Below, one piece after another: positions 26,210-63,868 of a stretch of DNA of 64,000 nucleotides (position 1 is its first letter; every line of letters starts with the position of its first letter). The position numbers and the translations under genes are program-made. The stretch comes from Thermoproteus sp. (lineage in GTDB: Archaea; Thermoproteota; Thermoprotei; Thermoproteales; Thermoproteaceae): NCBI GenBank assembly GCA_038893495.1, contig JAWARJ010000001.1, forward strand, positions 434,001-498,000, written 5' to 3'. Under the pieces are notes generated by a model. It was not told where the DNA came from and did no database searches. It was given only the letters and a program-made list of their open reading frames with translations.

Positions 26210-26296
26210 GGCTCTAGGCGGTCGCGTTAGGCTCCCAGATAGTAGTGGCTACCCAAATAGGCGAAATTTTTTTAAGGCCCCGCGTATAGAGGTACT

Positions 26297-26354
26297 GCGG
26301 GGGTAGCTCAGCCTGGTTGGAGCGCCCAGGGGCGTGGCCCCGAGGCGCTGGGGG
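26297..26354 (+). tRNA. Split tRNA-Met(CAT), 5' half with trailer
   Basis: The exon 26297-26327 reads acceptor GCGGGGG, TA, D arm GCTC-AGCCTGGTTG-GAGC, G26 and CCC (27-29). The remaining parts are missing here and occur at 27.6 kb. The trailer contains GGCGCTGGGGG (26344-26354), perfectly complementary over 11 nt to the leader of the 3' half. AAATTTTTTTAAGG (26264-26277) is centred 26 bp upstream. The MFS gene on the other strand ends 5 bp after the trailer helix. Confidence 0.9.
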
Positions 26355-26358
26355 TCCT

Positions 26359-27489
26359 CTATATCTTCAACAGGCCTAAGTACATCAAGGCCGAGGCAAT
26401 TGCCAGCGCGCCCGAGAGGAGCCAAAGGCCTTCGTAGCCTCCGGCCGACAGCACATATGCCGCGACGATCGGCGCGACGACCCCCGAGGACTGCCAGAAC
26501 AGGTTGGCCATGCCGGCCGCAGAGCCGGCCTTGCCGCGCCCCGCCAGCGATACGGCGGTGGAGTTAGCCGGCGTTATGACGAACCTCACGAAGCCCATAA
26601 GGGCCGCGTTTAGGAACAGAAGGGCTCCCCTGGCGGCGCCCAGAAGGGCCGTCAAGAGGCCGTAGGCCGCCTCAAAGACGACGAGAGTCCTCTTCACGCC
26701 GATCTTCTTCATGAACGTCCCGGCTATTACCGTCGAGGGGATGCCGGCGAGGGCTAGAAGCGAATAGGCGAAGCCCGCCTCGTAGTCGCCGAGCCCCGCC
26801 TCCAAGAAGTACCTATAGGCGTATAGGGTGACGGCCCAATAGGAGAGGAAGAACAGAAAGCCGGCGGCGCTCACGGTGAGGACGTTTGGGTCCTTCAAGA
26901 CGCCTAGCTCAAGCCCGGCGGAGCCGCGGGGAGGGGCCTCCTTGGCCCTCCGTAGGGCGAGGTAGGAGGCCGACAGGGCCGCCGAGGCCGCCGCGATGAT
27001 GTAGTAGGGGGCGCGCCAGCCCAGACTCGCGCTCAGGGCTGGGAGCGCCGCGCCGGCGATTACAATCGAGAGAGGCCAGGCGAGGCTGTAGTAGCCCATG
27101 GCCGTGGGGAGCTCGTCCCGGCCGAATTCGGAGGCCATAAGCTTCACGGTGGCGGGATATATCCAGCCCGCGGAGAGGCCCATGAAGAGGCTCGCCGCGT
27201 ACTCCACGGCCATGTCGTCGGCCAGGCCGGAGGCCAGCGACGAGAGGGCGAGGCCCAATAGGGCCGGCGACAGGATCAGACGGGGGTCGACTCTATCTGA
27301 GAGTAGCCCCGAGGGTAGCTGGACGGCCACATAGCCCGCGAAGAAGGCAGAGAAGACTATGCTGTCTTGGACCACAGTGGGCCTCAGGGAGGAATAGGCC
27401 GAGACTACGCTCCAGGCGAGGCGCGAGAAAAAGCTCATGAAGAAAGAGGCCGAGGCGACGGCCACCACGAGCAACTTTCTCGCGTCCAT
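26359..27489 (-). CDS. MFS transporter (376 aa) lying between the halves of tRNA-Met
   Basis: This is a twelve-helix major facilitator starting at the ATG 27489 (MDARKLLVVAVASASF), about 22 bp after TTATAAG on the minus strand. The open frame extends upstream to 27642, but that part overlaps the tRNA-Met 3' half and reads unlike protein. The loop 2-3 motif is GLLSDRVDPRLIL and loop 8-9 has MKKIGVKRTLVVFE. It resembles the nitrate/sugar-phosphate-type MFS by general pattern only, and the substrate is unknown. It fills the whole space between the two tRNA-Met half genes, on the opposite strand. Confidence 0.82.
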   Translation of the reverse strand: MDARKLLVVAVASASFFMSFFSRLAWSVVSAYSSLRPTVVQDSIVFSAFFAGYVAVQLPSGLLSDRVDPRLILSPALLGLALSSLASGLADDMAVEYAASLFMGLSAGWIYPATVKLMASEFGRDELPTAMGYYSLAWPLSIVIAGAALPALSASLGWRAPYYIIAAASAALSASYLALRRAKEAPPRGSAGLELGVLKDPNVLTVSAAGFLFFLSYWAVTLYAYRYFLEAGLGDYEAGFAYSLLALAGIPSTVIAGTFMKKIGVKRTLVVFEAAYGLLTALLGAARGALLFLNAALMGFVRFVITPANSTAVSLAGRGKAGSAAGMANLFWQSSGVVAPIVAAYVLSAGGYEGLWLLSGALAIASALMYLGLLKI

Positions 27490-27566
27490 GCCCCCAGGCC
27501 CTCGGCCTCTTATAAGCTTTGGCCCTATGGAGGAAAGCTTATAAACTAGCGAGCAGACATATGACG

Positions 27567-27657
27567 CCCCCAGCGCCGCGGATCCCCGCGTAAGGCTCAT
27601 AAAGGGCTCCCGGCCCGAGTAGCCGGGAGGACCCGGGTTCAAATCCCGGCCCCCGCA
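27567..27657 (+). tRNA. Split tRNA-Met(CAT), 3' half with leader and a 20-nt canonical intron
   Basis: The leader begins CCCCCAGCGCC (27567-27577), pairing with the 5'-half trailer. The exon starts at 27594: GG (30-31), then CTCATA with anticodon CAT at 27598-27600. A 20-nt insertion at about 27602-27621 follows, a canonical 37/38 intron. Then come G, CCGGG, AGGAC, T arm CCGGG-TTCAAAT-CCCGG, acceptor CCCCCGC and A27657. The joint folds as a bulge-helix-bulge: 5' GCGC[CC/A]GGGG against 3' CCCCGCGT[AA/G]. GCTTATAAAC (27537-27546) is centred 26 bp before the leader. Elongator Met is likelier than Ile2 because of the intron. Confidence 0.9.
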
Positions 27658-63109: not shown

Positions 63110-63784
63110 GTGTTTTGGTTGTTTTACGGGATTAGGGAGTTCCTACGGCTCGTAAGACACACACCTCTATGGCTGTTCTTCGTCACGTTTGCAATACAGA
63201 GCATTCCCTTTAACCCAGTACCCAACTACATACCCATAGCGGCGTATATAGCCTATACTGCTAGAGAGCCCTACCAGCTGACTCTCTCCGTGGTGCTCTC
63301 GGCGTTGGGGGCCGCGGTGGGGAAACTCGTCGTCCTTAAATTCGGCGACTGGCTGAAAGGCGTAATGCCGGCAAGGAGCAGAGAGTCCTTTAGGAGACTC
63401 TTGAGCCTAGTCCCCAAGGACAAATTGGACCTCGCGGTCTTCGCCATAGCCGCCTCGCCTCTCCCCGACGACGAAGTCTATTTGATCTTGAGGGCCGGCG
63501 ACTACGACGCCAAGAGGCTAGTCGCCGTCTTGATTCCGGCTAAGCTCCTCTGGGCCTCGATGCATGTGCTCTACGCCTTAGCGACCTACAGAGCCGTGAG
63601 GTATATAGCCGGCGACGTGGGGCTTTGGGCCTACATGGGCGCCATATCTGGCATCTCTCTGGCCCTCACCATAGCGGCATTGAGACTTGACTGGGGGGCC
63701 GTCCTCGACGCATATAGGGCCGGCGGCGTGAAGCTTGCAGTGAAGGCCGCCCTTAAGAGTCTCTCTCCCTTCAAGAGGCTGTAG
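63110..63784 (+). CDS. Membrane protein, VTT/DedA-like
   Basis: This 224-residue protein has about five hydrophobic segments with a central AASPLPDDEVYLILRAGDYD resembling the re-entrant loop of small VTT-type membrane proteins. The assignment is tentative. The GTG start follows CATAAAATATTAAG by about 22 bp. The Lys/Ser-rich C-terminus (AALKSLSPFKRL) is cytoplasmic. Confidence 0.6.
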   Translation: MFWLFYGIREFLRLVRHTPLWLFFVTFAIQSIPFNPVPNYIPIAAYIAYTAREPYQLTLSVVLSALGAAVGKLVVLKFGDWLKGVMPARSRESFRRLLSLVPKDKLDLAVFAIAASPLPDDEVYLILRAGDYDAKRLVAVLIPAKLLWASMHVLYALATYRAVRYIAGDVGLWAYMGAISGISLALTIAALRLDWGAVLDAYRAGGVKLAVKAALKSLSPFKRL

Positions 63785-63868
63785 GCCCTCTGGAGGAGGC
63801 CTCCTCATAGAGGCGGGCTCCGCCGCTCGAGGCCTCACGCCGAGGGCCTGTACATATACGGCGCATCT

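Follow-up and report, generated by a model that had tools for sequence, protein, structure and literature searches.

The host, Thermoproteus sp. GCA_038893495.1, belongs to the genus of T. tenax and T. uzoniensis, and its genome is assembled as one 1,995,394-bp contig that is 99.99% complete. The window is the whole stretch of DNA analysed here, 64,000 nt long (434001-498000 of the host contig). It contains a tRNA-Met(CAU) gene in two pieces, with an intact MFS transporter gene on the opposite strand between them. The features of the locus, numbered within the window, are:

26261-26275, plus strand: putative BRE/TATA promoter of the 5' half (GCGAAATTTTTTTAA; 13.4 bits), ending 21 nt before 26297
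26297-26327, plus strand: 5' half of tRNA-Met(CAU), tRNA positions 1-29, GCGGGGGTAGCTCAGCCTGGTTGGAGCGCCC
26328-26342, plus strand: trailer, apparent remnant of an ancestral 29/30 intron, AGGGGCGTGGCCCCG
26344-26354, plus strand: trans-pairing arm of the trailer, GGCGCTGGGGG, a perfect complement of 27567-27577
26359-27489, minus strand: MFS transporter gene, intact, 376 aa, filling the gap (PF07690, E 1e-40)
27510-27524, minus strand: promoter-like site of the MFS gene (7.1 bits, under the tRNA range), 20-21 nt before its ATG
27531-27545, plus strand: candidate internal BRE/TATA promoter of the 3' half (AGGAAAGCTTATAAA; 12.0 bits), ending 21 nt before 27567
27567-27577, plus strand: leader arm, CCCCCAGCGCC, predicted to lie at the transcription start; 11-bp complement of 26344-26354
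27584-27593, plus strand: leader end, CCCCGCGTAA, apparent remnant of the 3' end of the 29/30 intron and intron side of the bulge-helix-bulge (BHB)
27594-27657, plus strand: 3' half of tRNA-Met(CAU), tRNA positions 30-73, consisting of GGCTCATAA, a 20-nt intron and CCGGGAGGACCCGGGTTCAAATCCCGGCCCCCGCA
27598-27600, plus strand: anticodon CAT of the 3' half
27603-27622, plus strand: canonical 37/38 intron inside the 3' half, 20 nt, AGGGCTCCCGGCCCGAGTAG

The halves meet at tRNA position 29/30. Joined, and with the 37/38 intron removed, they give a 75-nt tRNA in which every stem is complete (GCGGGGGTAGCTCAGCCTGGTTGGAGCGCCCGGCTCATAACCGGGAGGACCCGGGTTCAAATCCCGGCCCCCGCA): a 7-bp acceptor stem, a 5-bp anticodon stem (CCCGG/CCGGG) and a 5-bp T stem, with the anticodon in the loop CTCATAA. 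The original prediction, made from the letters of the window, had given the coordinates of both halves exactly, and the 20-nt intron that it placed at the usual tRNA-Met site was found again at 37/38. This intron is closely similar to those of T. uzoniensis and Thermoproteus sp. CP80. The 31-nt 5' half is identical to the 5' end of tRNA-Met in T. tenax, T. uzoniensis and UBA157, where the gene is contiguous, and in CP80. ARAGORN and Rfam (gathering threshold) call a tRNA-Leu as the sole tRNA of the window and miss the split gene; at relaxed Rfam thresholds the 3' half gives just a weak match to the tRNA clan. Elsewhere in the window, 63780-63847 on the minus strand matches the Pyrobaculum H/ACA-box sRNA PyrR201 strongly (Rfam RF02801, 67.5 bits).

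The two halves had been described as the only matches to each other's acceptor and anticodon stems, and the host genome was searched for further copies. The 5' half occurs once with up to three mismatches allowed. The pattern of a CAU 3' half, GGCTCATAA...GGGTTC(A/G)AATCCCGGC, has two matches, the split gene and a contiguous gene at 295,775. The latter has the acceptor stem GGGGCCG, and both its acceptor and its body are tRNA-Ile-like; its identity to tRNA-Ile(GAT) of G012, a genome of the same genus, is 89%, against 83% for the split gene. The 295,775 gene is taken as tRNA-Ile2. The initiator tRNA (AGCGGGG..., CAT) is a separate contiguous gene at 1,501,644. The split gene is not initiator-like: it lacks the A1-U72 pair and the GGG/CCC anticodon stem, and its acceptor stem is GCGGGGG/CCCCCGC. 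By these sequence features it is an elongator tRNA-Met and neither tRNA-Ile2 nor an initiator. The search for a contiguous tRNA-Met(CAT) that had been proposed as a check thus returned no contiguous elongator, which leaves the split gene as the sole elongator tRNA-Met identified in the host genome; it should be essential. Viral contigs searched for the 5' half contained none. In G012 (210 contigs), several 5' and 3' patterns for an elongator tRNA-Met matched only other tRNAs; its gene could sit in an assembly gap or be rearranged further. In the host tRNA-Ile2(CAU) at 295,775, which also has a 20-nt 37/38 intron, the 29/30 intron is unusually long and contains additional hairpin sequence; the 29/30 intron of its congeners' tRNA-Ile2(CAU) is long too. 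In Thermoproteaceae Bin S10 the 29/30 intron of tRNA-Met measures 56 nt, and the T loop seems to contain a further intron.

Promoters were scored with a 15-nt BRE/TATA motif trained on host tRNA genes (n=29), both halves being left out. The training genes range from 10.2 to 23.4 bits, and the motif ends 19-24 nt before the tRNA start. A separate promoter had been proposed for each half, and motif sites do end 21 nt before 26297 and 21 nt before 27567, within the spacing of the tRNA genes; for the 3' half, this figure takes the first base of the helix arm (27567) as the RNA start. The claim that the 3' leader opens with the helix agrees with this predicted start. The candidate internal site is the top motif match in the gap (26330-27600), and it ranks 33rd when both strands of the window (127,972 positions) are scored; its 12.0 bits fall at the low end of the tRNA range. 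The MFS site is so close to the ATG that a leaderless MFS mRNA is expected. The 77 bp at 27490-27566 look like a divergent promoter region that would serve both the MFS gene and the 3' half. Since each piece has its own putative start signal, two RNAs would be made and then, probably, stitched together. The 5' half runs towards the stop codon of the MFS gene, at a distance of 4 nt, and no clear terminator was found after it; 5' halves in Nanoarchaeum equitans are likewise without sharp 3' ends (PMC3491384).

The trailer and leader can form a GC-rich helix of 11 bp, all Watson-Crick, as originally proposed. Pairing of at least 11 bp arises by chance in 23 of 39,912 random pairs of 40-nt segments drawn from the window and in 20 of 20,000 composition shuffles of the same segments, giving p about 0.0006-0.001. 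A canonical BHB with 3-nt bulges had also been read at the joint. It can form as described: the 4-bp central helix is G24C25G26C27 with GCGT (27588-27591), the bulges are CC^A and AA^G, and GGGG pairs with CCCC. It is not the minimum free energy (MFE) fold, because self-hairpins compete in the trailer of the 5' half (GGGGCGTGGCCCC) and in the leader of the 3' half (GCGGATCCCCGC). The forced BHB lies above the MFE by 7.4 kcal/mol (37 C) or 1.8 kcal/mol (80 C). In four relatives whose pre-tRNA is contiguous (T. uzoniensis, T. tenax, UBA157 and P. calidifontis), the corresponding costs are 0.8-5.3 kcal/mol (37 C) and 1.1-2.7 kcal/mol (80 C); at 80 C, the host BHB costs no more than those of its contiguous relatives. 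The joint copies the intron BHB of these relatives, with the same 4-bp central helix and 3-nt bulges; their intron helix is GGGGC/GCCCC, or GGGAC/GTCCC in T. tenax. At the temperature where the genus is expected to grow, folding models make the joint plausible, and they stop short of proof. The enzyme for such a joint appears to be present. A 182-aa protein matches the catalytic endonuclease subunit (2ZYZ_B, E 7e-84) and a 116-aa protein the small structural subunit (2ZYZ_A, PAE0789, E 1.6e-37). By homology, then, the host tRNA-splicing endonuclease is of the heterotetrameric type, with both subunits encoded; Chan et al. linked this type to split tRNAs (PMC3218864).

Relatives of the host show what the gene may have looked like before it was split. 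A contiguous tRNA-Met with a 20-nt 29/30 intron is found in T. tenax (AGGGACGAAGTCCCGCGTAT), T. uzoniensis (AGGGGCGTAGCCCCGCGTAG), UBA157 (AGGGGCTAAGCCCCGCGTAG) and several Pyrobaculum. Apart from one base, the host trailer AGGGGCGTGGCCCCG is the same as nucleotides 1-15 of the intron in T. uzoniensis (AGGGGCGTAGCCCCG), and the leader end CCCCGCGTAA fits the relatives' intron end, CCCCGCGTA(A/G/T), or one-base variants of it. Trailer and leader thus look like the two ends of the relatives' intron, which suggests that the split grew out of it. The T. tenax gene lies between the same gene blocks as that of the host, the left block at -636/-2721 and the right from +161 in T. tenax, and at -10705/-12860 and +4925 in the host. 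This points to the ancestral locus, with the split as the derived state, and we infer that evolution ran from a contiguous gene with a 20-nt 29/30 intron to the present halves. The tRNA-Met neighbourhood has undergone repeated local inversions in the host, CP80, T. uzoniensis and T. tenax.

The gap between the halves had been said to hold a complete MFS gene on the other strand, and the gene is indeed intact. Its orthologues (63% identity) sit at other loci in T. uzoniensis and CP80, no second close copy was found in the host genome, and the gene probably moved into the 29/30 intron. An empty site at the ancestral MFS locus is not demonstrable: the T. uzoniensis neighbour, a permease, has just a 41% relative in the host. 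CCCCG occurs at 26338-26342 and at 27584-27588, on either side of the MFS insert and just beyond the inverted arms of 11 bp; the pair could be a short duplication from insertion, or chance. A transposon bounded by these arms and repeats was considered and rejected: the genome has 11 copies of GGCGCTGGGGG and, beyond this locus, no inverted pair of it at close spacing, so that an element with repeated termini is unsupported.

A second interrupted copy of the gene, which like the derivation from the relatives' intron goes beyond the original prediction, is found in the draft genome of Thermoproteus sp. CP80:

NZ_LCWM02000003.1, extracted locus 1448-2275: interrupted elongator tRNA-Met with a gap of about 730 nt

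After the 5' half (1448-1478) come an entire 20-nt intron (TGGGGCAACGCCCCGCGTAA), a G and then unrelated sequence; the 3' half resumes at 2212. A candidate internal promoter (2147-2161, 15.1 bits) ends 21 nt before GGGCTGGATTCGCCGACGG. Within the latter, GGATTCGCCGACGG pairs over 14 bp with CCGTCGGCGAATCC after the 5' half, and the pairing is prolonged by GGGGC/GCCCC past one bulged T. The gap contains frame-broken pieces of a PaREP1 gene (PF05942, E 2.7e-13). The most economical joint would be at 30/31 after removal of the 29/30 intron in cis, and cis-splicing would then precede trans-splicing. The canonical 30/31 BHB, when forced, lies 3.5 kcal/mol over the MFE at 80 C and 10.5 at 37 C. The CP80 case is held more loosely because this fold is not the MFE and the genome is a draft.

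CP80 groups with T. uzoniensis on five shared neighbour proteins (100% of 200 bootstraps). Since this sister is unsplit, two independent splits are likely. Relative to glucokinase, the CP80 tRNA-Met is turned round with respect to T. uzoniensis, which makes a break point near the split tRNA likely. With different gap genes and break points, two splits are more parsimonious than one split followed by exact repair, and the gene was likely interrupted independently in the host and in CP80. A fuller account is favoured, if with less assurance: one tRNA gene would have been split at least twice in the genus, each time by a gene (MFS in the host, the PaREP1 relic in CP80) that landed in or beside the 29/30 intron, with a promoter gained 21 nt before a new trans helix and, in CP80, a split at 30/31 just past an intact cis intron. 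Mobile-element disruption of tRNAs was proposed by Sugahara et al. for Caldiarchaeum (PMC3293823); the gap genes of the host and CP80 fit insertion in general, and a transposon signature was not found.

The host locus is best read as a split elongator tRNA-Met(CAU), probably trans-spliced, whose halves are expressed from two promoters; a probability of about 0.86 is assigned to this reading. The 5' promoter would give a 5' half RNA from about 26297, and the internal promoter on the same strand a 3' half RNA from about 27567. Pairing of the GC-rich trailer and leader over 11 bp would bring the exons together and allow the BHB to form at 29/30. The (alpha-beta)2 endonuclease would then cleave the two bulges and cut out the 37/38 intron, after which the exons would be joined by a ligase. 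The ancestor would have been a contiguous gene whose 20-nt 29/30 intron took up an MFS gene that brought a promoter of its own. That the host makes two transcripts and splices them in trans is deduced here from the arrangement of the locus.

The main rival is a single 1.36-kb pre-tRNA from the 5' promoter, in which a 1,266-nt 29/30 intron carries the antisense MFS gene, is closed by the helix and is removed by cis-splicing. The halves share a strand and follow each other in the right order, 1.27 kb apart; the same BHB would work in cis, and the relatives' 20-nt intron at this site is presumably cis-spliced. Such a precursor would, however, need no internal promoter, whereas a candidate tRNA-type site (27531-27545) stands at the exact spacing before the helix; an internal promoter was the argument used by Chan et al. 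for Aeropyrum pernix (PMC3218864). The arrangement moreover recurs in CP80 with unrelated gap sequence, and transcription would have to proceed through 1.1 kb of an MFS gene that reads the other way. A cis-spliced long intron is accordingly rated unlikely. Far less credible still is a dead gene, destroyed by the MFS insertion, with decaying halves and its function supplied by another gene. tRNA genes are often integration sites, and partial tRNA fragments occur in some species (PMC3218864), but no other elongator Met gene was found in this nearly complete single-contig genome, every stem is unmutated in both halves, and a new candidate promoter and a helix are present. An assembly artefact that misplaced the MFS gene into a contiguous tRNA gene is equally improbable, as a simple misjoin would create neither the 11-bp match between the arms nor a candidate promoter at the correct spacing, the host is a single contig, and a second genome, CP80, has an analogous interruption.

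Split tRNAs are known from N. equitans (initiator Met included), Caldivirga, Aeropyrum, Thermosphaera and Staphylothermus (PMC4390854, PMC3218864, PMC4033280). In the freely accessible literature searched, no report was found of a split tRNA in Thermoproteus or for elongator Met. The original prediction had regarded a split tRNA-Met as new for a Thermoproteus-like genome; this stands for Thermoproteus, of which no holder was found, but methionine itself is not new, since the split initiator tRNA-Met of N. equitans is known (PMC4390854). A split tRNA is a known kind of gene, and the new point is the elongator Met, together with Thermoproteus; both would join a short list of cases. It has long been debated whether split tRNAs are an ancestral condition or arose from genes with introns (PMC3218864). 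In this one genus the evidence for before and after is unusually clear: congeners keep the before-state, and the after-state appears in two lineages, by apparently separate events, so that the route from intron to split, and its requirements for a promoter and a trans helix, become directly testable.

Among the closest known cases are the recent Desulfurococcales splits, tRNA-Asp of A. pernix and Thermosphaera aggregans and tRNA-Lys of Staphylothermus (Chan et al. 2011, PMC3218864). As in these, one split tRNA was identified, its halves are nearby and each has a tRNA-type promoter, putative in the host; in Staphylothermus, as in the host, protein genes lie between the halves. The Desulfurococcales have a BHB followed by a trans helix of 13-14 bp, the host a possible BHB and a helix of 11 bp. 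The host differs in that its tRNA is an elongator Met, in the split site (29/30 versus 37/38 and 30/31), and in that close relatives keep the contiguous intron-bearing gene, so that the before-state can be read directly. According to the accounts in PMC4090602 and PMC4390854, tRNA-Ala(CGC/UGC) of Caldivirga maquilingensis, also of the order Thermoproteales, is split at the same position, 29/30, with leaders resembling relatives' introns (Fujishima et al. 2009); in those accounts its 5' half is common to two tRNAs, whereas the host halves are neighbours and no sharing was seen. In N. equitans a methionine tRNA is likewise made from two half transcripts by trans-splicing, as predicted for the host (PMC4390854, PMC3491384), but that tRNA is the initiator, one of six split tRNAs in the reduced genome of a parasite, and the host's is an elongator, with a genome whose size is ordinary. 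T. tenax and T. uzoniensis have a permuted circular SRP RNA, and that of T. tenax was shown to be processed by the tRNA-splicing endonuclease (PMC4731332). This is again a rearranged RNA gene rescued by the endonuclease within the same genus, as is predicted for the host tRNA-Met, and its TATA box lies 26 nt before the start, as proposed for the host halves. It differs in being one permuted transcript rather than two, and in not being a tRNA.
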